From the NCBI GenBank assembly GCA_964017235.1, contig OZ024928.1, forward strand, positions 151,304,881-151,368,880: a stretch of 64,000 bases of DNA. The letters are read 5' to 3'. The translations under genes and the position numbers were made by a program. This document shows, one piece after another, positions 1,047-64,000 of the stretch (the stretch's first letter is position 1; every line of letters starts with the position of its first letter). The notes below the pieces were generated by a model. The model worked only from the letters and a program-made list of their open reading frames with translations. It had not been told where the DNA came from and made no database searches. The stretch comes from Sabellastarte sp. h YS-2021. Its lineage: Eukaryota > Annelida > Polychaeta > Sabellida > Sabellidae.

Positions 1047-1382
1047 AAAAATGAGTCAATTACACACCATTTATTGGCTATGGTTAACACAGGTCCTGTA
1101 GAGTGGCAGTCACTTTGGCTGAAGTAACTGACAGTTTAATATTGTACAGTTGAGGTCACATAATACATCATGTTGCATTTGAGTAATTGTAACAATAACA
1201 ACAATATCTTGGTCTTTGCTGGGAAATGTGTGTGTATAATAATACTGTGCATAACACAAGTAAAATACTAAAATCTACAAAATGTCCAAGTTGTAATTCT
1301 CACAGGTATATTATTGGGATATAGCATAAGAAAGCGTCCCAAGAATCTCATACTGAGATCTACTATTGTCATCTAGGTAAAA

Positions 1383-15882: not shown

Positions 15883-16105
15883 AGCATGTTATACTTGGTA
15901 TCTTACAATATCCTCCAGGAAAATAAACAAATAGCTACTGTTAGGAAATGGTAAGGGTATTTCGTTATAACAAGCATTTTATACTTGGTATCTTACAATA
16001 TCCTCCAGGAAAATAAACAAATAGCTACTGTTAGGAAATGGTAAGGGTATTTCGATATAACAAGCATTTTATACTTGGTATCTTACAATTTCCTACAGGC
16101 AGGAT
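15883..16105 (+). repeat. 90-bp tandem repeat, about 2.4 units
   Basis: GCATTTTATACTTGGTATC recurs at about 15883, 15973 and 16063. The first two full units differ by only a couple of bases. Confidence 0.85.
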
Positions 16106-21350: not shown

Positions 21351-22824
21351 ATCATCCCTGCTGTTACAGAGAAAAGGGTCATATACATCAGTGTAGAACT
21401 TATAAATTTGTACAATTTATTTTCTTTCTTCTGGTGTTTATATCTACCCCATTTTACTGTGCACAGTCACATTTACTCCTATTCTAGAATCCCATTTGAG
21501 CAGAAAAGACTGGTCCATTACTTTCATACTGTAAATATACAGTATCTCTGTTACCCAACTACTTTATAAACTTCAGTGGGGCCATAACTTAGCTTAACTT
21601 AGGTGAATAACATATTTCAACAAAACACTCTAAATGCAATGGTTTTCAAGTTACAATTGATTAATAATACTCAACATTGAAAGTCCCAAAGTGACTACTG
21701 CTCAGCTATGCAATGAGCTACAAGTATGCAATTTTACTATGTTACAGCTGACCCAAAAGTAGGTGAATAACATATTTCAACAAAATACTGGTGCAATAGT
21801 TTTCAAATTACAACAGTTATACTTATTTTCTGAGAATTCAAACATTTGCTGGGCCCTTCCTTCTTATGTGAGTCTACAAAAAATTTCAAATTTAATAAGT
21901 AAATTAAATTTTTATAAGTTAATACCTTGCCTAATGAACAATCAGCTATACCGGTTGGAATAGATACGCGGTACCGCGAAACGCCAGGACAGTCAGGTAG
22001 TGTGCATTCACCAAATGGCATGCCGTACTTCCTTCCTGTGTAGATGTGATGTGATAGCATCATTGCCTACACCTAGATAAGCCCTTGTAAGTTAAAAGTG
22101 GGGTCAGTTGGGAGGGCCACCCTTATTCATTAGGTAAGGTATTAACTTAAAAATATTTAATTAACTTATTAAATTTGCAACTTTATTGTGTTAATACATC
22201 TTACCTAATGGACAATTACCTAGAATAACTACTGCTTGGAAGGTGGGTAGCTTACTAAGGACTTAAGACTGGACTCAACAGAGACATTGGTAGTTTCCCA
22301 GGGACATCAGCTGGTCCCACTGGTCGGTTGCTAGTAAACAGGTTACTGGAACCAACCAACCTTGCTCCATCCACTTTTTACAGACCTCCCCTGAGGTGGG
22401 GAAGAGAGGTATGAGTTCAGTCCCTGGTGAGGCCCTCTTCAGAAGGAAAAGGAGTCTAGCTGGTAGTCCTTGGGCAGGCCACCACCGCCTGAAGACTGCT
22501 TGGCAAGGTGTCAGGCTGCTTACTTATGTATGGGTTAGTGGTGGATCTGCTGGCAGCCACCACCGGGCCCAGATGAAAAAGCTCTGAATCAGCCCAGGTT
22601 CATTCTTCAAACTAGAAATAGGCCGCCCTGTTGATAGTAGATGCGAATAGAAACAGGATAGCATAGAAGAACACACATTATCATGTGTAATGTCCACCCA
22701 TGAACCTTTTGCCCAAATTGTACAGTAGTCTTACAAGACCCTGTTTCATTTGTAAAATATATCAATGATGCTTAAATATTTGTTAGTGTAGATGTAAATT
22801 ATTTCAGCTTCATGCCTTTTTGCA

Positions 22825-24571
22825 TTGGTTGGGTTGAAAATTTTGACGAAATCACTCTATCTTGCACGGTTAAGAAGATAGAAGCAAATTCCTGTTTTTC
22901 TATTTTTGGCAAAAATTTGAAAATTCAAAATGGCCGCCATTTTTGGAAAAAGGAAATTTTTTTGAAAATTGCCAAGAGTACATTTCTTAGATACCCTATG
23001 GGTCGAAAATTTCAACAAAATAACTCTATTTTGCACGGTTAAGGCCAGTTTGTGTTTTTCCATTTTTGGCAAAAATTCGAAAATTCAAAATGGCTGCCAT
23101 TTTTGGGGAGGGGAAAATTTTTTGAAAATTGCAAAGAGTACACTCCTCAGATACCCTGTGGGTCGAAAATTTCCACGAAATCGCTCTATCTCGCACGGTT
23201 AAGGAGATAGAAGCAAATTAGTGTTTTGCCATTTTTGGCAAAAATTCGAAAATTCAAAATGGCCGCCATTTTTGGGGAGGGGAAAATTTTTTGAAAATTC
23301 CAAAGAGTACACTCCTGAGATACCCTGTGGGTCGAAAATTTCGACGAAATCGCTCTATCTCGCACGGTTAAGGAGATAGAAGCAAATTTGTGTTTTGCCA
23401 TTTTTGGCAAAAATTCGAAAATTTAAAATGGCCGCCATTTTTGGGGAGGGGAAAATTTTTTGAAAATTGCAAATATTACACTCCTTAGATACCCCATGGG
23501 TCGAAAATTTCGACGAAATCGCTCTATCTCGCACGGTTAAGGAGATAGAAGCAAATTTGTGTTTTGCCATTTTTGGCAAAAATTCGAAAATTTAAAATGG
23601 CCGCCATTTTTGGGGAGGGGAAAATTTTTTGAAAATTGCAAATATTACACTCCTTAGATACCCCGTGGGTCGAAAATTTCGACGAAATCGCTCTATCTCG
23701 CACGGTTAAGGAGATAGAAGCAAATTTGTGTTTTGCCATTTTTGCCAAAAATTCGAAAATTCAAAATGGCCGCCATTTTTGGGGAGGGGAAAATTTTTTG
23801 AAAATTACCAAGAGTACACTCCTTAGATACCCTGTGGGTCGAAAATTTTGACGAAATCGCTCTATCTCGCACGGTTAAGGAGATAGAAGCAAATTTGTGT
23901 TTTGCCATTTTTGGCAAAAATTCTAAAATTCAAAATGGCCGCCATTTTTGGGGAGGGGAAAATTTTTTGAAAATTGCAAATATTACATTCCTTAGATACC
24001 CTGTGGGTCGAAAATTTCGACGAAATCGCTCTATCTCGCACGGTTAAGGAGATAGAAGCAAATTTGTGTTTTGCCATTTTTGGCAAAAATTCTAAAATTC
24101 AAAATGGCCGCCATTTTTGGGGAGGGGAAAATTTTTTGAAAATTGCAAAGAGTACACTCCTTAGATACCCTGTGGGTTGAAAATTTCGACGAAATCGCTC
24201 TATCTCGCACGGTTAAGGAGATAGAAGGAAATTTGTGTTTTGCCATTTTTGGCAAAAATTCTAAAATTCAAAATGGCCGCCATTTTTGGGGAGGGGAAAA
24301 TTGTTTGAAAATTGCAAAGATTGCATTCCTCAGATACCCTGTGGGTCGAAAATTTTGCCGAAATCGCTCTATCTCGCACGGTTAAGGAGATAGAAGCAAA
24401 TTTGTGTTTTGCCATTTTTGGCAAAAATTCGAAAATTCAAAATGGCCGCCATTTTTGGGGAGGGGAAAATTTTTTGAAAATTGCAAAGAGTACACTCCTC
24501 AGATACCCTGCGGGTCGAAAATTTTGCCGAAATCGCTCTTTCTCGCACGGTTAAGGAGATAGAAGCAAATT
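22825..24571 (+). repeat. 169-bp satellite array in B1 (about 10 monomers)
   Basis: Period 169 bp, seen from repeated landmarks such as GGCCGCCATTTTTGGGGAGG and CTATCTCGCACGGTTAAGG. The first two monomers are diverged border forms shared with B2 and B3. Because 169 is not a multiple of three, the ~74-residue open frames on both strands are repeat artefacts. Confidence 0.9.
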
Positions 24572-24907
24572 ACTCAAAAGTAGTACTGAAAATACACAAT
24601 GAAGTACCTAAATGGCTATTACTCATGTACTGACAAAGCTATCAGTCCCAAATGCAATACCAAGCGAGCTATGGACATAACAATCTTGTATTCAAAATTG
24701 TAGTAAAATATCTTTAATTATTTTGGCTTAAATGCACGGAAACCAATGGGTACTGAAAATAGCTGTACTTAAGTATTACTCAGTAAGCAAAAGAGGTACA
24801 ACAGCCAAAAGCAATCCCAAGCAAGCTACTGACCCAATAAGCCTGCATACCAAATTTGGTGACAATAGCTCTAATACTTTTCCTTTAAATGAGCGGAAAC
24901 CATGCGT

Positions 24908-24970
24908 GACGCCGGACATCGGACGCCGGACGCCGGACATCGGACATCGGACAACGGACATCGGACGGCG
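24908..24970 (+). repeat. 7-bp CGGACNN minisatellite in B1
   Basis: About eight units of CGGACAT, CGGACGC or CGGACAA just upstream of the terminal hairpin. The same block has about eleven units in B2 and ten in B3. Confidence 0.8.
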
Positions 24971-25554
24971 AAAAAAGCAAAAATAATATATCCACCCCCC
25001 AGGGGGGTGGACATAATAAAACTGTGTTGTGTGTTGTGGGATTTCCATTAACAAGCTGATAATAACTGTTCTAAGGGGACTCCTGACTGGAAGGCCTCAG
25101 AAGCAGCAAAGTCCCTCACACCGTGGGCTTTAAACGAATGTAGACTAAGGGCCTCTTGATCACAGAACTCATGGCATAGGATCAGTCTACTTTATCCATG
25201 ATGAGATAGTGGCAGAAGACAGTTCTTTGTTCTGCCTGAGGTCTGAGGTTCTGTCCAAATAGTAGTGCAGGGCTCCAACTGGGCAAAGTGACCTATCAGA
25301 CTTGAGCGACTTATCCAGCGACAGGGTCTATCCACTAAATCTCAATATTTTTTCCATCACTTCTCCAAGACCAAAGCTTTAAAATCAAGGGCATTTTACA
25401 TGCTTTGTGGCATGCGAGAGACATGTAATGAGGCCACGAGCTCCAGCGCTTTTGCCTTTCAGAACCAGGCACAAGGTTCCAGTCCCATTACATGAGGAAG
25501 ACACCAAAGTTTGATCTGTTTACAAACACATCCTTGTGTTGAAATGCTGGATGA

Positions 25555-28204: not shown

Positions 28205-28505
28205 TGTAAAGTATCCTTGTGTCTTATATTAAACCAGGAATTACAGATGATGAGGTAACTTTCAATACGAAGTACCCCCGTGTCTTATACTGAACCAGTA
28301 ATTGCAGATAATTGGGTAACTGTCAATGTAAAGTATCCTTGTGTCTTATATTGAACCAGTAATTGCAGATAATTGGGTAACTGTCAATGTAAAGTATCCT
28401 TGTGTCTTATATTGAACCAGTAATTGCAGATAATTGGGTAACTGTCAAAGTAAGGTATCCCTTATCTTATACTGAACCAGGAATTACAGATGATTGGGTA
28501 CTGTT
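28205..28505 (+). repeat. 61-bp minisatellite, about five units
   Basis: Units begin GTAAAGTATCCTTGTGTCTT and end GGGTAACTGTCAAT. The third and fourth (from about 28330 and 28391) look identical; the outer ones differ at several positions. Confidence 0.85.
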
Positions 28506-30637: not shown

Positions 30638-32789
30638 AGCATCAGAGATGCCCGTAGCACACAGCCTGGGAAAATAGTTTTCAACACCATCAGATATAGA
30701 AGTAGTGAAACAGTACACAGATTGGGATACTTTCAGTGTCAGTGTCCAAATAATGTTTAAGTAGAGAAAATAACATCTAAGAGAAAGAAATTGCATGTAA
30801 AGAACAAGTATTAAAACAAGACAATTCAGTAAACTAAAAATTATGAAGTTTTAAGACGTCTCCCATTTTGATTTTCATTTGTATGGTCGAATTATGGTTT
30901 GGATGTTTTGAATATTACCCATACATACAGATGTAGCAATACATGCTTTTATGTGGAATTGGGGCTAAACCTGTGGCTCACTTAATGCAATACCATCTGT
31001 TACAATGGGAAGTTGCAAAAGTAAAACAGTTAATGACTTCTAATATGACTTTAACAGTGCTTAATCTACACCAAAAGACACCCAAAGGTGCAACAACCAA
31101 GATTCAAGTAAAAAGATAAAAATAGATATAAGAGAGATAAATAGTATCAGATATCCTCGTAGAGACATAAAATAGCATCAGATATGCAAGATCAAAGGTC
31201 AAATCCAGGTCACACCATGACGTTGCACACATATAACCCTTGACCAATGTCCCTACCAAATATCAACTTCCTACACCTTATGGTTTCCAAAATATAGCCC
31301 AGACAAGGTATTATAGGTCAAGGTCACTATGGCAAGGTCAAAGGTCAAATCAAGGTCACACCATGATGTTTTACATCTACACACCCTAGCCAATGTCACT
31401 ACTCAGTATCAACTTCCTGCACCTTATGGTTTCCGAGATATACCCCGACATGATTTTATAGATCAAGGTCACTACGGCAAGGTCAAAGGTCAAATCAAGG
31501 TCAGACCATGACGTTGCACACCTACACCCCTAACCAATGTCCCTACCAAGTATCAACTTCCTATGCCTTACAGTTTCCGTGATATAGCCCGGACCAGATT
31601 TTATAGGTCAAAGTCACTACGGCAAGGTCAAAGGTCAAACCATGACGTTGCACACCTACACCCCCAACCAATGTCCCTACCTAGTATCAACTTCCTACAC
31701 CTTACAGTTTCCGAGATATAGCCCGGACCAGATTTTAGAGGTCAAGGTCACTACGGCAACGTCAAAGGTCAAATCAAGGTCACACCATGACCTTGCACAC
31801 CTACATCCCCTAACCAATATCCCTACCAAGTATCAACTTCCTACACGTTACGGTTTCCGAGATACAGCCCGGACAAGATTTTATAGGTCAAGGTCACTAC
31901 GGCAAGGTAAAAGGTCAAATCAAGGTCACACCATGACGTTGCACACCTACACCCCCAACCAATGTCCCTACCAAGTATCAACTTCCTATACCTTACAGTT
32001 TCCGAGATATAGCCCGGACCAGATTTTAGAGGTCAAGGTCACTATGGCAACGTCAAAGGTCAAATCAAGGTCACGCCATGACCTTGCACACCTACATCCC
32101 CTAACCAATATCCGTACCAAGTATCAACTGCCTACACGTTACGGTTTCCGAGATACAGCCCGGACAAGATTTTAGAGGTCAAGGTCACTATGGCAAGGTC
32201 AAAGGTCAAATCAAGGTCACGCCATGATGTTGCACACCTACACCCCCTAACCAATATCCCTACCAAATATTAACTTCCTACACCTTACAGTATCCGAGAT
32301 ATAGCCCGGACAAGATTTTATAGGTCAAGGTCACTACGGCAAGGTAAAAGGTCAAATCAAGGGCAGACCATGATGTTGCACACCTACATCCCCTAACCAA
32401 TATCCCTACCAAGTATCAACTTCCTATATCTTACGGTTTCCGAGATATAGCCCGGACAGGATTTTAGAGGTCAAGGTCACTACGGCAAGGTCAAATCAAG
32501 GTCACACCATGACGTTGCACACCTACACCCCCTAACCAATGTCCCTACCAAGTATCAACTTCCTACACCTTATGGTTTCCAAGATATAGCCCGGACAAGA
32601 TTTTCAAACTCAAGGTCACTACGGCAAGGTCAAATCAAGGTCAGACCATGATGTTGCACACTTGCACCTCCTAACCAATGTCCCTACCAAGTATCAACTT
32701 CCTACACCTTACGGTTTCTGAGATACAGCCCGGACCAACTTTTTCCCGCCGCCCGCCCGCCCATCCGGACCCCATGGGTGAAAACAATA
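30638..32789 (+). mobile_element. Family A element copy A3, long array
   Basis: Has the family 5' end at 30638, the shared leader (match to A1 and A2 from about 30881), roughly ten 146-bp monomers and the CCCGCCGCCCGCCC block. It ends at GAAAACAATA without the hairpin, so it is 3'-truncated like A2. The inner 5' motif reads TAGCACACAGCC, two changes from A5. Confidence 0.8.
31315..32735 (+). repeat. 146-bp AGGTCA-rich tandem array in A3
   Basis: About ten monomers of 139-147 bp. A typical unit contains AGGTCAAGGTCACTACGG, then AAGGTCAAAGGTCAAATC, then AAGGTCA, followed by an AT-balanced spacer (TTGCACACCTACACCCCC ... GATATAGCCCGGAC). The unit thus holds about five AGGTCA half sites, including a spaced-by-one pair (DR1). 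Confidence 0.85.
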
Positions 32790-35281: not shown

Positions 35282-36393
35282 TAACATCAAAGATGCTCGT
35301 ATCCCTCAGCCCAGGGAAATAGTTTTCAATACCATGAGATATAGAAGTAGTGAAACAGTACAGAGATCGGGATACTTTCAAAGAATCGTCAATTATATAT
35401 AATGTTTAAGTTGAGAAAATAACATTTAGGAGAAAGAAAATGACAGAAGATGACATTAATTAATTAATAAACTAAAAATTATGAAGCTGTAAATTGTATT
35501 AAGTGAAGTAGAGCTGTTAATAAAATAGCTCAATTAAGTAAAAGTATTCAATAATCAGTTGCAGGAATCCATATATCTTTGTCAAAAGAGAAACATGTCT
35601 CAAATATTGCAGGTGAACACACTTTGGGAAAGACAAGGTTAAAGGTCACATCATGATGATGCACACCTAACTACTGTCCCTACTGAGTATCAAAACTACC
35701 TACACCTTACGGTTTCAGAGATAAGACCTGGACAAGATGTTAAAGATCAAGGTCACTTTGACAAGGTCAAACGTCAAATCAATGACACATCATGACATTG
35801 CACACTTACACTCCTAACTAATGTCCCTATCACGTATGAACTTTCTACACCTTACAGTTTCTGAGATATCGCCTGGACAAGATTTTAAAGATCAAAGTCA
35901 CTGCAACAACATCAAAGGTCAAATCAATGTGATATCATTATATTCCACACCTACACCCCCAACCCGTGTCTCTACCAAGTATTAACTTCCTACAACTTAT
36001 GGCTTCTGAGATACAGCCAGGGCAAGATTTTTAAGGTCAAGGTCACTACGGCAAGGTCAAAGGTCAAATCAAGGTCACACTAAGACATTGCACACCAACA
36101 ACCCCTAAGCAATGTCCCTCCCAAGTATCAATTTCCTACACGCAACAGTTTCCAAGATAAGACCAGGACAAGATTTTAAAGGTCAAAGTCACTACAGCAA
36201 GGTCAAAGGTCAAATCAAGGTCATATGATGTTGCACACCTACAAACCCTAAGCAATGTCCCTACCATGTACAAACTTCCTACACCTTACAGCTTCTGAAA
36301 TACAGCCTGGACAAACTTTTTCCCACCGCCTGCCCACATGCCCCATCTGGACACCATGAGTGAAAACAATACCCTCACAGCCCGTAAAGTCAG
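35282..36393 (+). mobile_element. Family A element copy A4, old and diverged
   Basis: The 5' end (AACATCAAAGATGCTCGT, then ATCCCTCAGCC), about four monomers and the 3' block are all recognisable but carry many substitutions. The terminal hairpin is degraded (CTCACAGCCCGTAAAGTC). Divergence from the other copies is much greater, so this is the oldest insertion of the family here. Confidence 0.75.
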
Positions 36394-37451
36394 TAGAATG
36401 TACAAGTGGAACCTTCACTTGTGGTGAGCAGTTATTATAATACATGGATTGTATAAGTGGCAAATTTCACAAAGGTAATAATTTCTGGTATTTTAGCTAA
36501 AAAGCTGAGTGATAAATAATTCCCAGTAAAATCTCACATTTGCATGACTTCAGCAGAAAGTGACTTTTAGTTGAATATTAATTCCAGTGAATAACATTAA
36601 TTTTAATATTAGTAAAAAAATTTCCAGCTATATGTCCATTTTGGTATATAGAACATGTCATATGGCTCCTGTGCTATAAATATTTGCGTAAGTCATAACA
36701 GCTGGGTACCTTGGGAGTTTTTCCAAGGACAATTCTAAAATTTGTTTTAAGAAAGAAACATTATGTGCAATAATCTATAATCTATCTTGGTTTTTGACTT
36801 GAGCCACCTTTATCTGTTGAACACGTATTAACTGATCCACTACTAGTAACACTTTTGTCACTATCTCTGAAACTTTCCACATGAAGTCCTCAGGAATCAT
36901 CTGTATTCATAAAGTTAAGTACATAGAGCAAAATCTTCAGAATATTTCAAATGAATCTGCTTCTACATGTAATGGAAGATAATAAATATGTCAGTGTTGC
37001 TTCTGAACCTCAATCAGGACCCCTGAATATATGTACATCATCAAAATATTACTACCAAGTATTAGACACAGTTCCTTGCTGAATAAATCAGTGTTACTAT
37101 TAACGTTTTATGATGTTTCTATAATATATATATTTTTGCTATGCAATCAGCAACCTTGTGCAACTGATTCTACAGCATGCATTTTCTAACAAAGCGTTAA
37201 TGATGTATGATGCAGGTTATAACTAGATTGGGCCAACTCGGCGCCAACATATCCCCAGACAGGTCATCACTCACGCCACAGGTTTTGATCGGGAATTTTT
37301 TTAAAACATAATTACCCATTATTATATGAACTTCAGCACATCAATCTACTCTGTTTATATCTTCCCAAGGAAGATGGTGTATCCCCAGACGCCGAATACA
37401 TAACTCAAATTATATTTTCAATGTTCCTGCAATGATAACTCTAAACCTATT

Positions 37452-37690
37452 TTCAAAGTATTTAAATGATTGATGATTGAATGTCCATTCTAAAATAATA
37501 ATCCCAAAAGAGCATATCTGTTTCTATATTTGTTGACAAATAAAATATTATTTTTAACTCAACTCATCATACTTTTCAATCTTCCTTCAAAGTATTTAAA
37601 TGATTGATGATTCAATGTCCATTCTAAAATTCATAATCCCAAAAGCGCATATCTGTTTCTATATTTGTTCACAAATAAAATATTATTTAA
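37452..37690 (+). repeat. ~136-bp tandem duplication within family C
   Basis: TCAAAGTATTTAAATGATTG recurs at about 37454 and 37589, and both copies run to ACAAATAAAATATTATTT with few differences. Confidence 0.8.
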
Positions 37691-39611
37691 AAAAAAATTA
37701 TTTATATTATTATTTTATTATATTATTTTTAGAATTTGCAAATTGTTTTCAGTTATTCATTTCCTCTATACCTATATATGTGGTCCATATATATGCAACC
37801 TAAATATGTGACACAATCTCAGTTCTGACTCCCCTTTGTGTTATATGTAATGAAGCCCACCACCTCCCACCCCCACCCCTCTCCCCTTCTCCACACCTCT
37901 CTCACTATTACACAAGATCTGCAACCCCATTGAGTTCTTTGTTTCTCATCTGATATCATTAAATACCTTTGTTTATTTAGTGTCACTCAATATAGCTGGA
38001 GGTCCCAGAGGTGGGTGGGGGGAATCCAGGGGGGGGATGTGGGTTCACTTGGGACTACAAAGAGATGGAGTGCTACAGCATAAATGGTAAACAAACAATC
38101 TATATAAAAGGGGTACTCAAATACAAAAGGAATTGAGAATTTTAAGTATGCGATTATCAACTGAAATGAGTTCATAACTGTAGGAGCTGTGTCAAAATTA
38201 ACTGAGGCAAGTTGAATAAAACTGGGCTAGTTGAGGGTTAAAAATCCCCTAGTTTTACTACATAAGGATATAATTTCATTAATATTGGGACTTAAAGCTC
38301 ACTTAAAGTGTCCATTTTGTCTACTTGAATATGTTTAACCAGTTTTATTTTAAAAAGTTAAAAACTCAGCAAGCAGAGGTATAACACACAAAAATAAGTT
38401 CTTAAAAGACTAAGATAGCCATAACATTATTAATATTCAAAATTTAAATAGACAGGCATTTCCTTTGAAAAATTCAAAGATTTCAGCTCTATAACCCACA
38501 TAGTTTGACAGTTACTGGGCTTTAAAGTGGCATAATGTCCATAAATTGGGTTTCTGTGGGCATTTTACAATTGTTAAAGAGACCTTAGCAATTAAACTAC
38601 AGATCTGAAACTTTTTGGGGGACATACATAACAAACAAAAATTATATATAATACAGTTTAAGACTTGTCACACTAAGCATTTCCAAATAACAGGGCAAAA
38701 TACGGAAAAAATGTCAAAAAAGGCACTTGGGCGAGTGTCTATGGCCCTCATACACAGGTTAAATGTCTACTAAAAACCTTGATTTTCGGCACATGTAGAA
38801 AGGACATAATAATGCATTCCCAGATGGGATTTCAGCTCAATCAATCACATAGTTTAACAGTTACAGGGCTTAAAGGTGGCAAAAAGTCCAAATATTGGGT
38901 CTCTGTGGGCCTTTTAGAGATCTCGATGTGCCTTTCAAATTAAAGCTTCAGACTTAAAATTTGTTACATACTAAGATTACACATAGAATATGTATCTAAT
39001 AAAGTTTGAAACTTCTCAGGCTTACCATTTCCAAGTTACAGAGCAAAATATGTGAAAAATGTCTTAAAAGGGTCACTCAGGTGGGTGTTTAAGGTCCTCA
39101 TACACAGGTTAAATGTCTACTTGAAGCCTTGATTTTTGGCACATGTAAAAAGAACATAATAATGTATTCCCAGATGAGATTTCAGCTCTATCAGTCACAT
39201 AGTTTAACAGTCACAGGCCTTAAAATTGGCAAAATGTCCAAATACTGGGTCTTTATGGGGCCTTCTAGAGACCTAAATGTGGCCTTCAAATTAAAGCTTC
39301 AGACTTAAAATTTGTCACATACTAAGATTACACATAGAATATGCATCTAATACAGTTTGAAACTTCTTAGACTTACCATTTCCAAGTTACAGGGAAAACT
39401 AGAAATAGGCCGCCCTGTTGATAGTAGATGCGAATAGAAACAGGATAGCATAGAAGAACACACATTATCATGTGTAATGTCCACCCATGAACCTTTTGCC
39501 CAAATTGTACAGTAGTCTTACAAGACCCTGTTTCATTTGTAAAATATATCAATGATGCTTAAATATTTGATAGTGTAGATGTAATTTATTTCAGCTTCAT
39601 GCCTTTTTGCA

Positions 39612-42600
39612 TTGGTTGGGTTGAAAATTTTGACGAAATCACTCTATCTTGCACGGTTAAGAAGATAGAAGCCAATTCCTGTTTTTCTATTTTTGGCAAA
39701 AATTTGAAAATTCAAAATGGCCGCCATTATTGGGAAAAGGAAATTTTTTTGAAAATTGCCAAGAGTACATTTCTTAGATACCCTATGGGTCGAAAATTTC
39801 AACAAAATAACTCTATTTTGCACGGTTAAGGCCAGTTTGTGTTTTTCCATTTTGGGCAAAAATTCTAAAATTCAAAATGGCTGCCATTTTTGGGGAGGGG
39901 AAAATTTTTTGAAAATTGCAAAGATTACATTCCTTAGATACCCTGTGGGTTGAAAATTTCGACGAAATCGCTCTATCTCGCATGGTTAAGGAGATAGAAG
40001 CAAATTTGTGTTTTGCCATTTTTGGCAAAAATTTGAAAATTCAAAATGGCCGCCATTTTAGGGGAGGGGAAAATTTTTTAGAAATTACCAAGAGTACAAT
40101 GCTCAGATACCCTGTGGGTCGAAAATTTTGACGAAATCACTCTATCTGGCACGGTTAAGGAGATAGAAGCAAATTTGTGTTTTGCCATTTTTGGCAAAAA
40201 TTCGAAAATTCAAAATGGCCGCCATTTTTGGGGAGGGGAAAATTTTTGGAAAATTGCAAAGATTGCATTTCTTAGATACCCTGTGGGTCGAAAATTTCGA
40301 CGAAATCGCTCTATCTCGCACGGTTAAGGAGATAGAAGCAAATTTGTGTTTTGCCATTTTTGGCAAAAATTCGAAAATTCAAAATGGCCGCCATTTTTGG
40401 GGAGGGGAAAATTTTTTGAAAATTGCAAATATTACATTCCTTAGATACCCTGTGGGTCGAAAATTTCGATGAAATCGCTCTATCTCGCACGGTTAAGGAG
40501 ATAGAAGCAAATTTGTGTTTTGCCATTTTTGGCAAAAATTCGAAAATTCAAAATGGCCGCCATTTTTGGGGAGGGGAAAATTTTTTGAAAATTGCAAAGA
40601 TTACATTCCTTAGATACCCTGTGGGTCGAAAATTTCGACGAAATCGCTCTATCTCGCACGGTTAAGGAGATAGAGGCAAAAATTCGAAAATTCAAAATGG
40701 CCGCCATTTTTGGGGAGGGGAAAATTTTTGGAAAATTGCAAAGATTGCATTCCTTAGATACCCTGTGGGTCGAAAATTTCGACGAAATCGCTCTATCTCG
40801 CACGGTTAAGGAGATAGAAGCAAATTTGTGTTTTGCCATTTTTGGCAAAAATTCGAAAATTCAAAATGGCCGCCATTTTTGGGGAGGGGAAAATTTTTTG
40901 AAAATTGCAAATATTACATTCCTTAGATACCCTGTGGGTCGAAAATTTCGATGAAATCGCTCTATCTCGCACGGTTAAGGAGATAGAAGCAAATTTGTGT
41001 TTTGCCATTTTTGGCAAAAATTCGAAAATTCAAAATGGCCGCCATTTTTGGGGAGGGGAAAATTTTTGGAAAATTGCAAAGATTGCATTCCTTAGATACC
41101 CTGTGGGTCGAAAATTTCGACGAAATCGCTCTATCTCGCACGGTTAAGGAGATAGAAGCAAATTTGTGTTTTGCAATTTTTGGCAAAAATTCGAAAATTC
41201 AAAATGGCCGCCATTTTTGGGGAGGGGAAAATTTTTTGAAAATTGCAAAGATTACATTCCTTAGATACCCTGTGGGTCAAAAATTTCGACGAAATCGCTC
41301 TATCTCGCACGGTTAAGGAGATAGAAGCAAATTTGTGTTTTGCCATTTTTGGCAAAAATTCGAAAATTCAAAATGGCCGCCATTTTTGGGGAGGGGAAAT
41401 TTTTTTGAAAATTGCAAATATTACATTCCTTAGATACCCTGTGGGTCGAAAATTTCGACGAAATCGCTCTATCTCGCACGGTTAAGGAGATAGAAGCAAA
41501 TTTGTGTTTTGCCATTTTTGGCAAAAATTCGAAAATTCAAAATGGCCGCCATTTTTGGGGAGGGGAAAATTTTTGGAAAATTGCAAAGATTGCATTCCTT
41601 AGATACCCTGTGGGTCGAAAATTTCGACGAAATCGCTCTATCTCGCACGGTTAAGGAGATAGAAGCAAATTTGTGTTTTGCCATTTTTGGCAAAAATTCG
41701 AAAATTCAAAATGGCCGCCATTTTTGGGGAGGGGAAAATTTTTTGAAAATTGCAAAGATTGCATTCCTTAGATCCCCTGTGGGTCGAAAATTTCGACGAA
41801 ATCGCTCTATCTCGCACGGTTAAGGAGATAGAAGCAAATTTGTGTTTTGCCATTTTTGGCAAAAATTCGAAAATTCAAAATGGCCGCCATTTTTGGGGAG
41901 GGGAAAATTTTTGGAAAATTGCAAAGATTGCATTCCTTAGATCCCCTGTGGGTCGAAAATTTTGCCGAAATCGCTCTATCTCGCACGGTTAAGGAGATAG
42001 AAGCAAATTTGTGTTTTGCCATTTTTGGCCAAAATTCGAAAATTCAAAATGGCCGCCATTTTTGGGGAGGGGAAAATTTTTGGAAAATTGCAAAGATTGC
42101 ATTCCTTAGATACCCTGTGGGTCGAAAATTTCGACGAAATCGCTCTATCTCGCACGGTTAAGGAGATAGAAGCAAATTTGTGTTTTGCCATTTTTGGCCA
42201 AAATTCGAAAATTCAAAATGGCCGCCATTTTTGGGGAGGGGAAAATTTTTTGAAAATTGCAAATATTACATTCCTTAGATACCCTGTGGGTCGAAAATTT
42301 CGATGAAATCGCTCTATCTCGCACGGTTAAGGAGATAGAAGCAAATTTGTGTTTTGCCATTTTTGGCAAAAATTCGAAAATTCAAAATGGCCGCCATTTT
42401 TGGGGAGGGGAAAATTTTTGGAAAATTGCAAAGATTGCATTCCTTAGATACCCTGTGGGTCGAAAATTTCGACGAAATCGCTCTATCTCGCACGGTTAAG
42501 GAGATAGAAGCAAATTTGTGTTTTGCCATTTTTGGCAAAAATTCGAAAATTCAAAATGGCCGCCATTTTTGGGGAGGGGAAAATTTTTTGAAAATTGCAA

Positions 42601-44198
42601 AGATTGCATTCCTTAGATACCCTGTGGGTCGAAAATTTCGACGAAATCGCTCTATCTCGCACGGTTAAGGAGATAGAAGCAAATTTGTGTTTTGCCATTT
42701 TTGGCAAAAATTCGAAAATTCAAAATGGCCGCCATTTTTGGGGAGGGGAAAATATTTTGAAAATTGCAAAGATTGCATTGCTTAGATACCCTGTGCGTCT
42801 AAAATTTTGCCGAAATCGCTCTATCTCGCACGGTTAAGGAGATAGAAGCAAATTAGTGTTTTGCCATTTTTGGCAAAAATTCGAAAATTCAAAATGGCCG
42901 CCATTTTTGGGGAGGGGAAAATTTTTGGAAAATTGCAAAGATTGCATTCCTTAGATCCCCTGTGGGTCGAAAATTTTGCCGAAATCGCTCTATCTCGCAC
43001 GGTTAAGGAGATAGAAGCAAATTTGTGTTTTGCCATTTTTGGCAAAAATTCGAAAATTCAAAATGGCCGCCATTTTTGGGGAGGGGAAATTTTTTTGAAA
43101 ATTGCAAATATTACATTCCTTAGATACCCTGTGGGTCGAAAATTTCGACGAAATCGCTCTATCTCGCACGGTTAAGGAGATAGAAGCAAATTTGTGTTTT
43201 GCCATTTTTGGCAAAAATTCGAAAATTCAAAATGGCCGCCATTTTTGGGGAGGGGAAAATTTTTGGAAAATTGCAAAGATTGCATTCCTTAGATACCCTG
43301 TGGGTCGAAAATTTCGACGAAATCGCTCTATCTCGCACGGTTAAGGAGATAGAAGCAAATTTGTGTTTTGCCATTTTTGGCAAAAATTCGAAAATTCAAA
43401 ATGGCCGCCATTTTTGGGGAGGGGAAAATTTTTTGAAAATTGCAAATATTACATTCCTTAGATACCCTGTGGGTCGAAAATTTCGACGAAATCGCTCTAT
43501 CTCGCACGGTTAAGGAGATAGAAGCAAATTTGTGTTTTGCCATTTTTGGCAAAAATTCAAAATGGCCGCCATTTTTGGGGAGGGGAAAATATTTTGAAAA
43601 TTGCAAAGATTGCATTGCTTAGATACCCTGTGTGTCGAAAATTTTGCCGAAATCGCTCTATCTCGCACGGTTAAGGAGATAGAAGCAAATTAGTGTTTTG
43701 CCATTTTTGGCAAAAATTCGAAAATTCAAAATGGCCGCCATTTTTGGGGAGGGGAAAATTTTTGGAAAATTGCAAAGATTGCATTCCTTAGATCCCCTGT
43801 GGGTCGAAAATTTTGCCGAAATCGCTCTATCTCGCACGGTTAAGGAGATAGAAGCAAATTTGTGTTTTGCCATTTTTGGCAAAAATTCGAAAATTCAAAA
43901 TGGCCGCCATTTTTGGGGAGGGGAAAATTTTTGGAAAATTGCAAATATTACATTCCTTAGATACCCTGTGGGTCGAAAATTTCGACGAAATCGCTCTATC
44001 TCGCACGGTTAAGGAGATAGAAGCAAATTTGTGTTTTGCCATTTTTGGCAAAAATTCGAAAATTCAAAATGGCCGCCATTTTTGGGGAGGGGAAAATTTT
44101 TTGAAAATTGCAAAGAGTACACTCCTCAGATACCCTGCGGGTCGAAAATTTTGCCGAAATCGCTCTATCTCGCACGGTTAAGGAGATAGAAGCAAATT
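39612..44198 (+). repeat. 169-bp satellite array in B2 (about 27 monomers) with higher-order structure
   Basis: Same monomer as B1. Variant monomers recur at fixed larger spacings: a marked monomer at 41412, 42257 and 43102 (845 bp, five units) and at 40905 to 41412 (507 bp, three units). A second variant recurs at 42821 and 43658 (837 bp, five units less a small deletion near 43555). One monomer near 40670 has a large internal deletion. Confidence 0.88.
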
Positions 44199-44534
44199 AC
44201 TCAAAAGTAGTACTGAAAATACACAATGAAGTACCTAAATGGCTATTACTCATGTACTGACAAAGCTATCAGTCCCAAATGCAATACCAAGCGAGCTATG
44301 GACATAACAATCTTGTATTCAAAATTGTAGTAAAATATCTTTAATTATTTTGGCTTAAATGCACGGAAACCAATGGGTACTGAAAATAGCTGTACTTAAG
44401 TATTACTCAGTAAGCAAAAGAGGTACAACAGCCAAAAGCAATCCCAAGCAAGCAACTGACCCAATAAGCCTGCATACCAAATTTGGTGACAATAGCTCTA
44501 ATACTTTTCCTTTAAATGAGCGGAAACCATGCGT

Positions 44535-44618
44535 GACGCCGGACATCGGACGCCGGACGCCGGACATCGGACATCGGACATCGGACAACGGACATCGGAC
44601 ATCGGACATCGGACGGCG
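44535..44618 (+). repeat. 7-bp CGGACNN minisatellite in B2
   Basis: About eleven units, the longest of the three copies, showing that the block changes length independently of the rest of the element. Confidence 0.8.
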
Positions 44619-46396
44619 AAAAAAGCAAAAATAATATATCCACCCCCCAGGGGGGTGGACATAAATATGTGAAAAATGTCTAAAAATGGTCACTCGGGTG
44701 GGGATTTATGGTCCTCATACACAGGTTAAATGTCTTCTTAAAGCCTTAATTTTTGGCACATATAAAAATAACATACTAATATCTTCCCAGATAGGATTTG
44801 AGCTCTATCAGTCACATAGTTTGACAGTCACAGGGCTTAAAAGTAGCAAAAAGTCCAAATATTGGGTCTTTGGGAGCCTTTTAGAGACCTCAATTTGACC
44901 TTCAAAATTAAAGCTTCAGACTTAAAATCTGTTACATACTAAGATTACACACAGAATATATATCTAATACAGTTTGAAACTTCTCAGACTTCCCATTTCC
45001 AAGTTACAGGGAAAAAGATGTGAAAAATGTCTTATAAGGGTCACTCGGGTGGGTGTTTATGGTCCTGATACACAGGTTAACTGTCTATTAAAGGCCTAAA
45101 TGTTGGGGCACATATAAGAAAACACATAGATATATTCCCAGATGATATTTAACTTAGATGAGAGACATAGTTTGAAAGCTACAGTGCTTGAAAGTGGCAA
45201 AAAGTGCATAAATTGGGTCTCTGTGGGCACTTTTGAGACCTTAAGTCGACCCCTTTGGGTAAACCTACAGCCCTAAAATTTTCTACAGACAAGGATTACA
45301 TATCAAAGTTATACCTAGCGCAGTTTGAGACTCATCAGAATTACCACTTCCAAATTATAGGGCAAAATATGTGAAAAGTATAGCAAAAAATTCCTAAGTG
45401 GGGGTATTTATGGGCCTCAAACACAATTTTCTCCTCAACTTAAAGTCGTGATTTTCGGCACATGTACTAAGAACATATTAATGTGTTGTCAGGTATAATT
45501 TCAGCCAGCTGAGCATCATAGTTTGTGACCTACAGGGCTCTAAGTGGCCAAAAGTCCAATTTCTGACCTTAAGGTGGCCATAAGTTCTTTTTTACTGGGA
45601 GTTTAAGGTCACCTTAAAATAGGGATCTTCCTTTGGGCACCCTTAACATGTGTACCAAGTTTGAAAAAAAAATATTAATTTGTTTTTGAGTTATCGCGTC
45701 CACAAGGAAATTTCTACGGCGGCGGCGGCGCGACGGACCTGAATCCAATATATCCCCGACTTTCGTCTGGGGATATAATTACCTTTGTATGGTGGAAGCT
45801 TATACTTCCACTGTTGTTTTTTTTATTTTTTAGTAAGAATACCCATTTAAGTGGCCAAATGACTTTACTGACACTTTTCTAAAAGGAATTGTGTGGTTTG
45901 GTTCAAGGAAGAAATGAATCTATGTTAAAGGCAAACAAAGGTTCCAAAATCTTCCATGGTGACGTATTTGCCCTAAACACAGGGAAATACAGACCAGGAT
46001 GTATTTTTTTTACATACACCGGCGCCCCGGTACTATGGATAATGAGTGTGTATAGCTTTCGTTGTTTCAACAATATCTTCACTTTGGAAAGTATGTAACT
46101 TAAAAACATGAATAAAATATCATTAGAAAGTTATTTTTACAGCGTTTCTGCTCATGTTTGTTGCATAAAAATCCATGCAGAAACTAGAAATAGGCCGCCC
46201 TGTTGATAGTAGATGCGAATAGAAACAGGATAGCATAGAAGAACACACATTATCATGTGTAATGTCCACCCATGAACCTTTTGCCCAAATTGTACAGTAG
46301 TCTTACAAGACCCTGTTTCATTTGTAAAATATATCAATGATGCTTAAATATTTGTTAGTGTAGATGTAAATTATTTCAGCTTCATGCCTTTTTGCA

Positions 46397-48631
46397 TTGG
46401 TTGGGTTGAAAATTTTGACGAAATCACTCTATCTTGCACGGTTAAGAAGATAGAAGCAAATTCCTGTTTTTCTATTTTTGGCAAAAATTTGAAAATTCAA
46501 AATGGCCGCCATTTTTGGAAAAAGGAAATTTTTTTGAAAATTGCCAAGAGTACATTTCTTAGATACCCTATGGGTCGAAAATTTCAACAAAATAACTCTA
46601 TTTTGCACGGTTAAGGCCAGTTTGTGTTTTTCCATTTTGGGCAAAAATTCGAAAATTCAAAATGGCTGCCATTTTTGGGGAGGGGAAAATTTTTTGAAAA
46701 TTGCAAAGATTACATTCCTTAGATACCCTGTGGGTTGAAAAATTTCGACGAAATCGCTCTATCTCGCATGGTTAAGGAGATAGAAGCAAATTTGTGTTTT
46801 GCCATTTTTGGCAAAAATTTGAAAATTCAAAATGGCCGCCATTTTAGGGGAGGGGAAATTTTTTTTTAAATTGCCAAGAATACAATGCTCAAATACCTGT
46901 GGGTCGAAAATTTTGACGAAATCGCTCTATCTCGCATGGTTAAGGAGATAGAAGGAAATTTGTGTTTTGCCATTTTTGGCAAAACTTCGAAAATTCAAAA
47001 TGGCCGCCATTTTTGGGGAGGGGAAATTTTTTTGAAAATTGCAAAGATTGCATTGCTTAGATACCCTGTGCGTCGAAAATTTTGCACGGTTAAGGAGATA
47101 GAAGCAAATTAGTGTTTTGCCATTTTTGGCAAAAATTCGAAAATTCAAAATGGCCGCCATTTTTGGGGGAGGGGAAAATTTTGGGAAAATTGCAAAGATT
47201 GCATTCCTTAGATACCCTGTGGGTCGAAAATTTCGACGAAATCGCTCTATCTCGCACGGTTAAGGAGATAGAAGCAAATTTGTGTTTTGCCATTTTTGGC
47301 AAAAATTCGAAAATTCAAAATGGCCGCCATTTTTGGGGAGGGGAAAATTTTTTGAAAATTGCAAAGATTGCATTCCTTAGATACCCTGTGGGTCGAAAAT
47401 TTCGACGAAATCGCTCTATCTCGCACGGTTAAGGAGATAGAAGCAAATTAGTGTTTTGCCATTTTTGGCAAAAATTCGAAAATTCAAAATGGCCGCCATT
47501 TTTGGGGAGGGAAAATTTTTTGAAAATTCCAAAGAGTACACTCCTGAGATACCCTGTGGGTCGAAAATTTCGACGAAATCGCTCTATCTCGCACGGTTAA
47601 GGAGATAGAAGCAAATTTGTGTTTTGCCATTTTTGGCAAAAATTCGAAAATTTAAAATGGCCGCCATTTTTGGGGAGGGGAAAATTTTTTGAAAATTGCA
47701 AATATTACACTCCTTAGATACCCTGTGGGTCGAAAATTTCGACGAAATCGCTCTATCTCGCACGGTTAAGGAGATAGAAGCAAATTTGTGTTTTGCCATT
47801 TTTGGCAAAAATTCGAAAATTCAAAATGGCCGCCATTTTTGGGGAGGGGAAAATTTTTTGAAAATTACCAAGAGTACACTCCTTAGATACCCTGTGGGTC
47901 GAAAATTTTGACGAAATCGCTCTATCTCGCACGGTTAAGGAGATAGAAGCAAATTTGTGTTTTGCCATTTTTGGCAAAAATTCGAAAATTCAAAATGGCC
48001 GCCATTTTTGGGGAGGGGAAAATTTTTTGAAAATTGCAAATATTACATTCCTTAGATACCCTGTGGGTCGAAAATTTCGACGAAATCGCTCTATCTCGCA
48101 CGGTTAAGGAGATAGAAGCAAATTTGTGTTTTGCCATTTTTGGCAAAAATTCTAAAATTCAAAATGGCCGCCATTTTTGGGGAGGGGAAAATTTTTTGAA
48201 AATTGCAAAGAGTACACTCCTTAGATACCCTGTGGGTTGAAAATTTCGACGAAATCGCTCTATCTCGCACGGTTAAGGAGATAGAAGGAAATTTGTGTTT
48301 TGCCATTTTTGGCAAAAATTCGAAAATTCAAAATGGCCGCCATTTTTGGGGAGGGGAAAATTGTTTGAAAATTGCAAAGATTGCATTGCTCAGATACCCT
48401 GTGGGTCGAAAATTTTGCCGAAATCGCTCTATCTCGCACGGTTAAGGAGATAGAAGCAAATTTGTGTTTTGCCATTTTTGGCAAAAATTCGAAAATTCAA
48501 AATGGCCGCCATTTTTGGGGAGGGGAAAATTTTTTGAAAATTGCAAAGAGTACACTCCTTAGATACCCTGTGGGTCGAAAATTTTGCCGAAATCGCTCTA
48601 TCTCGCACGGTTAAGGAGATAGAAGCAAATT
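46397..48631 (+). repeat. 169-bp satellite array in B3 (about 13 monomers)
   Basis: Shares the diverged 5' border monomers with B1 and B2. It contains shortened monomers near 46880 and 47085 and then the block collinear with B1. Confidence 0.88.
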
Positions 48632-48967
48632 ACTCAAAAGTAGTACTGAAAATACACAATGAAGTACCTAAATGGCTATTACTCATGTACTGACAAAGCT
48701 ATCAGTCCCAAATGCAATACCAAGCGAGCTATGGACATAACAATCTTGTATTCAAAATTGTAGTAAAATATCTTTAATTATTTTGGCTTAAATGCACGGA
48801 AACCAATGGGTACTGAAAATAGCTGTACTTAAGTATTACTCAGTAAGCAAAAGAGGTACAACAGCCAAAAGCAATCCCAAGCAAGCTACTGACCCAATAA
48901 GCCTGCATACCAAATTTGGTGACAATAGCTCTAATACTTTTCCTTTAAATGAGCGGAAACCATGCGT

Positions 48968-49044
48968 GACGCCGGACATTGGACGCCGGACGCCGGACAT
49001 CGGACATCGGACAACGGACATCGGACATCGGACATCGGACGGCG
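48968..49044 (+). repeat. 7-bp CGGACNN minisatellite in B3
   Basis: About ten units; one has changed to TGGAC. Confidence 0.8.
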
Positions 49045-49978
49045 AAAAAAGCAAAAATAATATATCCACCCCCCAGGGGGGTGGACATAATGACTGAGAT
49101 ATTGCATGTTAAAGATTGAATTTTTTATATTCACTGTTGTCACTGCATTTGACAGTCTTTTTCACATTCTCTCATTGAATATTTGTATTATTTAAACCAT
49201 AAATCGTACAAAACGGAGAACAATAAAACTGAAACATCCCTCATCAGACAAATACAGAAAAAATATATCACTCATGAACAATATAATACTCGTGCTACGA
49301 AATCGTATAATATTGTTATCTTCATTCGTGATATATTTATTCTGTATTTGTCATTCGGGAAGTTTTCCTATTATGTGCAGTAGATCTTTTAAAGCTTTTC
49401 AAAGAAAATAATACACACATTGATAGAGATAACCTTTTATCCTGTTCTTGATTCTGTAAATTACCTTAAAATAACCTCATACAAGGAAAGAGATTGAACT
49501 TAAGCTTTTTAAATTATGTGATTTAAAAAGTGGGTATAACACGAATACTAGTATTCTTACCTTATTTTTCAAAGGTTTTCAACCAAAACACCAGTTTTTG
49601 ATTGAATATTTTAACAATGCCTGTCCATATTACTTTCCAGATATAAAAAAAATGTGCATTTTGGAATATTGCATAACAATAGATGAATACAGAACAGAAT
49701 CTGGCATAACGTCACTCAAACTTTACAAAATACATACTTAACATTTACAAGTGAGCCACATGAAGTGTCTCCCTTGCTTTACTTCAGGGAAAAAAGTTCA
49801 TTAAATATTTCTGAACTATAATTTATTGTTATATCCTTTCATTATTCTGAATCTATGCAATATTAGACTAAAGGTTTTCAGTGAACGAAGAAAACATCAA
49901 CCTACTATAATACTAACTGATATCATTAGTAAGTAATTATTCACAGACAAAAATCATATTACTTAAGATCTCCACACA

Positions 49979-61130: not shown

Positions 61131-61646
61131 AAGAAAAGAGAAAAAATGCAATTTATTTATTTATTTCATGAATCCAGATAACAGTAAAATTAAAAAAAAA
61201 AAAAATAATAAAAAAAACCAGTAGCACCCAGCCAATAAGCCATTAAGATGTGGTTTAGAAGTGAAATTAAAAAAAAAAAGACAAAATTTAATAAAAACAG
61301 CATTAAATAGTTTATTTATTTGAACTTTTAGTTTAGCATCTATTTCTTATTATTTAAATAAAGAAGATTTTATGCAGTCCCAAATTGGAACTAATATTTC
61401 AAAATATCTTGAAGTTAGACATGTCTCACATTTTTTCACAGGTGTCTCACCTTTTTAAGTGAAGGGAGACAGTCTGTCTCGCATTCATTTTTGACGAGAG
61501 CAAACACTGCAAAAATTAGTGTGAAGAAATTTGTTAACTGTGGCTGTTTTAAACATGCAGTAGGGGTGTTGCGGATTTTTTCCTTCCGGTTTCACGTCTA
61601 GTACTTCCAGGTCAGTTACCGGTTAACCGTCTCTTATTTAACAAAA

Positions 61647-63798
61647 TAGCATCAGAGATGCCCGTACCCCACAGCCTAGGGAAATATTTTCAACACCATG
61701 AGATACAGAAGTACTGTATCAGTATAAACTTTAGGATACTTTCAGAGCACTGTCAGTTATATAAAGGTCCAAATAATGTTTAAAAGAAAGATCATGCATA
61801 TAAAGATGAAGTATTAAAACAAGATAATTCAATAACAAGATGACAGCATTAATCAGCAAACTAAAATTCAACCCTCTTTATCTACATCTGCATGGCCAAA
61901 TTATGGTTTAGATGGTTTGAATATTACCATGCATATAGAAGTGGTAATACATTTAATGAATGCTTATGTGTGGTGTTGGAGCAAAATCTGTGGCTCACTT
62001 GATGAAATTCTATCTCTTACAATGGGAAGTTATGAAAGTAAAATTCTTAATAAATTCTAATATGACTTTAACAGTGCTTAATCTGCATCAAAAGAGAGAC
62101 CCAAAGGTGCAACAAGATTTTATAGGTCAAGGTCACTAGGACAAGGTCAAAGGTCAAATTAAGGTGACACCATGATAATACACACCTACAGCCCCTAACC
62201 AATGTCCCTACCAAGTATCAACTTCCTCAACCCTACGGTTTCCAAGATATAGCCCGGACAAGATTTTATAGGTCAAGGTCACTACGCCAAGGTCAAAGGT
62301 CAAATCAAGGTCAGACCATGACGTTGCACAACTATATCCCCTAACCAATGTCCCTACCAAGTATCAACTTCCTACACCTTACGGTTTCTGAGATATAGCC
62401 CAGACAAGATTTTTAAACTCAAGGTCACTATGGCAAGGTCAAAGGTCAAATCCTGGTCAGACCATGACGTTGCACACCTACACACCCTAACCAATGTCCT
62501 TACCAAGTACCAACTTCCTACACCTTACGGTTTCCGAGATATAGCCCGGACAACATTTTATAGGTCAAGGTCACTATGGCAAGGTCAAAGTTCAAATCAA
62601 GGTCAGACCATAACATTGCACACCTACACCCCCTAACCAATATCCCTACCAAGTATCAACTTCCTACACCTTACGGTTTCTGAGATATAGCCCGGACAAG
62701 ATTTTATAGGTCAAGGCCACTACGGCAAGGTCAAAGGTCAAATCAAGGTCAGACCATGATACTGCACACCTACACCCCCTAGCAAATGTCCCTACCAAAT
62801 ATCAACTTCCTACACCTTACGGTTTCCGAGATATAGCCCGAACAAGATTTTATAGGTCAAGGCCACTATGGCAAGGTCAAAGGTCAAATCAAGGTCAGAC
62901 CATGACGCTGCACACCTACACCCCCTAACCAATATCCCTACCAAGTATTAACTTCATACACCTTACGGTTTCTGAGATATAGCCTGGACAACATTTTATA
63001 GGTCAAGGTCACTACGGCAAGGTCAAAGGTCAAATCAAGGTCACACCATGACGTTGCACACCTACACCCCCTAACCAATGTCCCTACCAAATATCAACTT
63101 CCTATACCTTACAGTTTCCGAGATATAGCCTGGACAAGAATTTATAGGTCAAGGTCACTACGGCAAGGTCAAAGGTCAAATCAAGGTCAGACCATGACGT
63201 TGCACAACTACACACCCTAACCAATGTCCCTACCAAGTATCAACTTCCTACACCTTACGGTTTCCGAGATATAACCCGGACAAGATTTTATAGGTCAAGG
63301 TCACTACGGCAAGGTCAAAGGTCAAATCAAGGTCAGACCATGACGTTGCACAACTACACCCCCTAACCAATGTCCCTACCAAGTATCAACTTCCTACACC
63401 TTACGGTTTCCGAGATACAGCCCGGACAAGATTTTCAAACTCAAGGTCACTACGGCAAGGTCAAAGGTCAAATCAAGGTCAGACCATGACGTTGCACAAC
63501 TACACCCCCTAACCAATGTCCCTACCAAGTATCAACTTCCTACACCTTACGGTTTCCGAGATACAGCCCGGACAAGATTTTCAAACTCAAGGTCACTACG
63601 GCAAGGTCAAAGGTCAAATCAAGGTCAGACCATGACGTTGCACACCTACACCCCCTAACCAATGTCCCTACCAAGTATCAACCTACACCTTACGGTTTCT
63701 GAGATACAGCCCGGACAAACTATTTCCCGCCGCCCGCCCGCCCATCCGGACACCATGGGTGAAAACAATACCCCGACAGCCCTTAAGGGCTGTGGGGT
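61647..63798 (+). mobile_element. Family A element copy A5, most complete copy
   Basis: Complete at both ends. The 5' end TAGCATCAGAGATG is followed by TACCCCACAGCC at 61665-61676. The 3' end closes with the hairpin at 63771-63797 whose outer arm, GGCTGTGGGGTA at 63788-63799, is the exact reverse complement of that 5' motif. In between are the leader, about eleven monomers and the CCCGCC block. Flanks are A-rich (AAAA before, AAAA after), so target duplication cannot be resolved beyond A residues. There is no coding capacity, so it must have been mobilised in trans. Confidence 0.85.
62125..63715 (+). repeat. 146-bp AGGTCA-rich tandem array in A5
   Basis: About eleven monomers. The spacing between successive AGGTCAAGGTCAC blocks is 146 bp in the measured stretch (63001, 63147, 63293, 63439). 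Monomers are highly alike, consistent with recent homogenisation. The last two or three use TTTTCAAACTCAAGGTCAC instead of TTTTATAGGTCAAGGTCAC, a variant also seen at the end of the arrays in A2 and A3. Border monomers are therefore inherited with the element. Confidence 0.88.
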
Positions 63799-64000
63799 AA
63801 AAACATGAGAACCAAATAGTTTTCCATACTGTGAAACAGGAATTTTAACACAACACAGATGTGTCCTCAATTCTGATTCGCTAAACGGCGAAATATATGG
63901 TAGTTCCAAATTATCGCTCATTATGGCTGTCTTATAACAGTAAAAAGCAAATAAAAGTGGATTACGACATTTATTTTGTATGTAAGGTTAGTAAAGTTAC

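Follow-up and report, generated by a model that had tools for sequence, protein, structure and literature searches.

Three satellite-carrying element families in the annelid Sabellastarte are very probably non-autonomous rolling-circle transposons of the Helentron/Helitron2 group

We analysed a window of 64,000 nucleotides (the whole stretch of DNA under study) from the annelid Sabellastarte sp. h YS-2021 (contig OZ024928.1; C2:151304881-151368880 in our search of the genome, 1.786 Gb in 647 contigs). The window contains copies of three families of dispersed elements, here called A, B and C, each built around a central tandem array. Their ends and insertion sites mark them very probably as non-autonomous rolling-circle transposons of HINE (Helentron-associated interspersed element) type, seen here in reverse-complement orientation. 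Monomer lengths were computed as 146 bp (A), 169 bp (B) and about 350 bp (C), which bears out the 146, 169 and ~352 bp given in a preliminary description made from the letters of the window. That description placed all three families within 37222-49088; this interval does hold one C element and two B copies (one nested in C), whereas family A lies elsewhere, in five pieces. Coordinates below are positions in the whole window; all elements lie on the (-) strand and are read as reverse complements. SubTIR denotes a subterminal inverted repeat and IR the inverted repeat that pairs with it.

37222-45778 (-), family C element, complete though interrupted by B copy 2; its canonical 5' end lies at 45776-45778 and its 3' CTAG at 37223-37226
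45750-45776 (-), C 5' hairpin: subTIR 45765-45776 and IR 45750-45760, with one unpaired base
45716-45738 (-), C GC-rich block with a single GTCCG
38645-45377 (-), C central array of ~350-bp units, broken by B copy 2
37249-37260 (-), C 3' subTIR, exact inverse of the C 5' subTIR; a second copy at 37379-37390 sits 130 bp inside this outer one
37228-37247 (-), C 3' palindrome TTGGCGCC..GGCCCAA, weak as a fold
22611-25016 (-), family B copy 1, complete, outside the interval of the preliminary description
39398-44664 (-), family B copy 2, nested in the C array, with an array of about 27 units and an exact empty site at locus L093
46183-49090 (-), family B copy 3, complete
49062-49088 (-), B copy 3, 5' subTIR and IR hairpin
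48973-49040 (-), B copy 3, GTCC(GAT) microsatellite, the CGGAC block of the preliminary description
46402-48631 (-), B copy 3, central array of 169-bp units
46245-46271 (-), B copy 3, 3' subTIR (46262-46271) followed by a palindrome (46245-46260), weak as a fold
61646-63799 (-), family A, the sole complete copy in the window, likewise outside that interval; 5' hairpin 63769-63799, array 62112-63718, 3' subTIR 61665-61676, palindrome 61649-61661
1-1047 (-), family A copy, running off the edge of the window
about 8857-10166 (-), family A copy lacking the 5' hairpin
30639-32789 (-), family A copy lacking the 5' hairpin
35285-36387 (-), family A copy, diverged and truncated

Read in its own orientation, the B element runs from TT-ATGTCCACCC with its hairpin through GTCC repeats and the array to GGGTGGACAT, a palindrome and CTAG-T. 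The parts of A and C follow the same order (Ts at the start, subTIR with hairpin, GC-rich GTCC block, array, 3' subTIR, palindrome). This order agrees with that published for HINEs, namely 5' subTIR, complementary IR, microsatellite, tandem repeats, 3' subTIR and palindrome, inserted at TT targets (PMC4067079, PMC7492417). The HINE- or Helentron-like scaffold with satellite arrays that the preliminary description proposed thus matches the published layout. Its orientation has to be reversed, because in that layout the subTIR, IR hairpin and microsatellite lie 5' and the inner subTIR and palindrome lie 3': the feature called a 3' hairpin marks the 5' end, and the supposed 5' inner motif is the 3' subTIR.

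The exact pairing of an end motif with its inner inverted copy, reported earlier for all three families, was confirmed at 61665-61676/63788-63799 in A, at 22690/25005, 39477/44653 and 46262/49079 in B, and at 37250 and 37380/45765 in C. For each canonical element, the longest exact pair between the first 18 nucleotides (nt) and the last 200 nt was compared with 20,000 Markov-shuffled tails. The pair of 12 nt in A was reached by 1 shuffled tail, that of 10 nt in B by 40 and that of 12 nt in C by 3 (the copy at 37379-37390 was scored; the outer copy at 37249-37260 also pairs over 12 nt), all above chance. In each family the 5' subTIR is followed by a complementary IR, with one G-T pair in B and one unpaired base in A and C, and the 5' hairpins of all three fold beyond shuffles (z -2.7, -4.3 and -5.8). 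A 3' palindrome was found by sequence in A, B and C, with clear fold support in A (z -3.4). The CGGAC-containing block noted earlier beside the hairpin is present in all three families; it forms a repeat array in B only (8, 11 and 9 CGGAC in the three window copies), A and C having a single CGGAC within a GC-rich stretch. The 5' ends read TT-ATG, TT-ATAT and T-TACCCC, with no 5' TC in any family. The 3' ends of B and C are CTAG, which fits CTRR and is the ACTAGA terminus correctly described as common to these two; A has a different terminus, with T-run ends in place of CTRR. Apart from short weak matches, the modules of the three families share no similarity with one another.

A possible conformational switch between the imperfect 5' hairpin and perfect long-range pairing was not pressed, as a perfect hairpin occurs in the B variant of loci L014, L020 and L034. 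These three and L038 are composite B elements with an inner second 5' module, about 70% similar and with no 3' module before it; the inner hairpin is the perfect one in L014, L020 and L034. A second C-type element was also considered, since 15 of the 40 best matches to the C 3' module start at positions 1-6 and 25 start at 117-253 (mostly near 140); it was dropped on one case, L093, which proved to be a normal C copy carrying an array indel.

Exact matches to end segments are numerous across the genome: 2,518 for a 30-mer of the B 3' end, 6,919 for a 39-mer of the C 3' end and 7,453 for a 24-mer of the A 5' end. Reversed-pattern controls for these segments gave none, and both strands were about equally represented, whereas the nine A, B and C copies in the window all lie on the same strand. 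The ends are near-constant among the genomic copies compared; differing ends would have spoken against a common element structure.

The sequences around the ends are similarly uniform. A T precedes the B 5' hairpin in 36/36 rows and TT in 33/36, the three rows without TT (L014, L020, L034) being the opposite arm of the inner perfect hairpin; among 32 B 5' ends with TT, which include one tandem junction, 25 have an A before it, compared with a background of 29.5%. At the B 3' end, CTAG is followed by T in 35/35 rows and by TT in 34/35. C shows ATT at both of two 5' ends and CTAG-TT at all three 3' ends; in A, TTTT precedes 6/6 5' ends and TT follows 6/6 3' ends. The A-rich insertion sites of the preliminary description are therefore real on the strand it read and are T-rich in the orientation of the element.

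One B insertion could be compared with its empty site. At L093, the 40 joined flank bases of B copy 2 match exactly when the element is assigned two Ts and fail to do so with zero, one or three; under the two-T reading 120 joined bases align with three mismatches and no gap. No target duplication is seen at this site, the one two-sided exact case; because the Ts can slip, both A^TT and AT^T are compatible with it. A C element also interrupts a Helentron-type Rep open reading frame in L042 (about 1-1502) just after the HUH motif; L044, L045 and L047 are uninterrupted at this point and read TTTATT then TTGGATAG, a comparison that covers the 5' side of the site. The target of B and C is (A)TT, a T-rich site in line with the TT target suggested earlier; the empty-site evidence comprises these two cases, two-sided in B and one-sided in C, with none in A.

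As the B element carries two Ts, sites that read CTAG-TT-ATG are direct joins of a 3' end to a 5' end. A search for such head-to-tail arrangements in B, allowing 0-4 bases between the ends, found 17 sites, 14 of them exactly CTAG-TT-ATG and three with extra bases; the search in C found a single site, which is exact, and reversed controls gave none for either family. Four of the 14 exact B joins lie in one array on C1, with junction spacings of 4,674, 4,673 and 4,673. Helitron transposition is known to yield precisely joined ends (PMC5876387). The joins are as rolling-circle replication predicts and support it for the HINE-type group.

The arrays of B have a polarity of their own. Among 30 B copies (27 loci and the three window copies, compared as 80 random pairs; L079-L081 were excluded because they belong to the same array as L078), the two units beside the 3' module are more similar between copies (medians 0.981 and 0.971) than to adjacent units (0.736 and 0.772). 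Beyond the second unit, between-copy similarity (0.90-0.92) and neighbour similarity (0.91-0.95) are alike. On the 5' side no rank-specific unit was found (32 of 33 usable; L009 is window copy 3), a weaker result because fixed 169-bp frames lose register. Copies share the units next to the 3' module and show no rank-specific ones at greater distance, so that growth of the satellite within the B element is probable; on the B data, the simplest reading is that one founder array has probably been growing and shrinking away from the 3' module. Of the two routes proposed earlier, capture or growth of satellites, this polarity favours growth within a founder array in B.

The genome also encodes candidate enzymes. 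The PF14214 profile gave 24 matches above cut-off, with open frames of up to 2,245 amino acids. Motif 2 of Rep could be located in 18 of the 24 loci: it reads GSP in nine, has W before P in eight and is a stop in one, and the Helitron-type L occurs in none (Helentron-type signature after PMC4067079). Several GSP loci look like mutual copies (L042, L044, L045 and L047; L060 and L061), and by eye the 24 loci comprise about six or more distinct Rep groups. Pfam searches of three translated stretches from two loci returned DUF6570 in two and OTU in one. An OTU-like protease segment lies upstream of Rep in L039 (2-1006, Pfam match) and L048 (by eye), as reported for Helentrons. Rep genes with a Helentron signature mean that the right type of enzyme exists in this genome. 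Compared with the Rep loci at the protein and DNA level, the modules of A, B and C gave only the C, A and B copies inserted in L042 and L055 and short near-threshold matches, in keeping with elements that lack coding capacity.

Taken together, we consider A, B and C very probably to be non-autonomous rolling-circle transposons of the Helentron/Helitron2 group and of HINE type, a reading favoured by the feature-by-feature agreement of their layout with PMC4067079 and PMC7492417. End structure, near-constant ends, target and one empty site are observed directly, as are the exact joins, the polarity of the B array and the Reps with Helentron signature. We envisage a Rep/helicase, provided in trans, that would recognise the two subTIRs; one strand would presumably be nicked and displaced from the 5' end (subTIR with hairpin), and displacement would stop at the 3' module (inner subTIR with palindrome). 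The displaced strand may then circularise or continue as a multimer. Insertion of the single strand would follow at a T-rich site, which for B and C is (A)TT, and would leave no target duplication. The satellite inside the element would travel with it, and in B the array would gain or lose units distal to the 3' module.

Several points weigh against this assignment. The 3' palindromes of B (z -1.3) and C (z -1.5) are weak as folds. The distances from the 3' subTIR to the 3' end, about 19 (A), 79 (B) and 27 nt (C), all fall outside the 38-60 bp of mite HINEs, which PMC4067079 gives as a descriptive range and does not, in the portion considered, state as a rule. At 10 nt, the B subTIR falls one base short of the 11-bp family rule; mite subTIRs measure 12-15 and those of oyster 11-12. 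Two C arrays without B at the copy-2 site, in L042 and L083, mismatch the join by one base and provide no exact match. No autonomous element with A, B or C ends was identified: none of the places listed as matching the C 3' module or a hairpin adjoins any of the 24 PF14214 loci, and a search for hairpins with a different interior yielded one C-type and ten B-type matches, none beside a Rep locus (this search is blind to partners that share more than the hairpin). Finally, Helentron and Helitron2 are inseparable without the C-terminal AP endonuclease domain, and the class is named jointly.

The closest known counterpart is Cg_HINE of the Pacific oyster (PMC7492417), which likewise has a 5' subTIR, an IR, a GTCC-type microsatellite, a satellite-like array and a 3' subTIR followed by a palindrome, inserts at T-rich targets without target duplication and could not be linked to an autonomous Helentron in that study. 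Its arrays mostly have up to 5 units and at most 29, compared with the roughly 27 of B copy 2, and the microsatellite is reduced in A and C to one GTCC in a GC-rich block; the likeness is one of layout, no oyster module having been compared by sequence. HINE-Mo and DINE-1 share subTIRs, a 3' palindrome, central repeats and a TT target with A, B and C, and differ in the 3' subTIR distance given above (PMC4067079). The Helitron2-type FoHeli elements of Fusarium (PMC5148889) have asymmetric terminal inverted repeats with hairpins, as here. FoHeli1 and 2 insert between TNAT and T, and joined ends were detected for one subgroup. Their subTIR lies ~20-40 from the 3' end as against 19, 79 and 27, their terminal sequences differ, and satellite arrays are not described in the portion of that text considered. 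Among bivalve elements, Pearl (CvE, MgE; central repeats of ~160 bp) and DTC84 have a comparable architecture according to PMC7492417, a likeness by description and not by sequence.

How many enzymes are involved is a separate matter. One kind of Rep may move all three families, as the common replicase of the preliminary description would; on balance we think it rather likely that different Helentron lineages move A, B and C with no common replicase, a view compatible with the Helentron/Helitron2 assignment. It is favoured by the dissimilarity of the modules beyond short weak matches, by the six or so or more Rep groups and by the termini of A, although B and C share both TCTAGT-T 3' ends and the (A)TT target. 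The CTAG ends of B and C and the T-run ends of A likewise argue against treating A, B and C as one family. A more speculative proposal, which we regard as doubtful, is that one Helentron/Helitron2-type Rep reads shape (a 5' hairpin and an exact inverted copy before a 3' palindrome) and not sequence, with replication running past the 3' end into multimers and extending the array from the 5' side.

That B and C are canonical Helitrons (Helitron1), ordinary non-autonomous elements inserted at A^T, appears improbable. The CTAG end fits CTRR, a 3' palindrome is present, A precedes TT at 25/32 B 5' ends, and a published proto-Helentron that sits at A^T starts with 5' TT, finishes in 3' CTAG and resembles the B and C ends (PMC4067079). 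Yet none of the three families has a 5' TC, A lacks a CTRR terminus, the combination of a 5' subTIR and IR hairpin with an inverted inner copy at the 3' end is the one seen in Helitron2/Helentron elements, and Rep motif 2 has S or W before P in 17/18 loci (one stop) and never L. It is scarcely credible that ordinary satellite arrays were spread by recombination or segmental duplication between fortuitous flanks: the arrays are large and other tandem families occur in the window, but the ends are near-constant to the base where the flanks are unrelated, one empty site is exact, and copies number in the thousands, about equally on both strands. Equally hard to sustain are MITE-like (miniature inverted-repeat) cut-and-paste elements with terminal inverted repeats, a name given to such elements before, because the inverted repeats, though present in elements without genes, are subterminal and asymmetric, the one exact empty site has no target duplication and the head-to-tail joins are precise.

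Other repeats lie near these elements. Two short tandem arrays with units of 61/122 bp and 90 bp, at 28205-28504 and 15883-16099, belong to none of A, B and C. In L030, the B insertion is bordered by yet another dispersed tandem family, the fourth (GTCAGCTATAACATAGTG...), and similar sequence is present in L018, L013, L027, L032 and L068 and near 21622 in the window. A generic end scan of the window for an extra family gave 8 matches, 5 of them B or C ends, compared with 0-5 in 20 shuffles, which is too weak to propose one; the scan missed A, probably through its complexity filter.

Satellite-carrying HINEs of bivalves are already in print, and A, B and C add members to the HINE type. Beyond membership, the additions are an empty site exact to the base, precise joins of element ends and the polarity of the array, as judged by general queries of the HINE literature. 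Among the papers listed on bivalve Helentrons, titles and opening lines of abstracts do not name the three families, nor does the accessible portion of a survey of bivalve transposons describe them. The genome of Mercenaria mercenaria is reported to contain 4-5% rolling-circle elements and about 10% satellites (PMC8905726); neither Helitron nor Helentron occurs as a word in the main text of that paper.

In the single genome of Sabellastarte, three HINE-type families are thus very abundant, and their ends and target can be stated to single-base precision. If the doubtful proposal of a shape-reading Rep were true, the element would be a satellite-making machine. The partner of satellite-carrying HINEs was likewise left unresolved in oyster; here, the thousands of copies whose end segments are identical suggest a recently active source, so that the question of the partner is testable in this genome.

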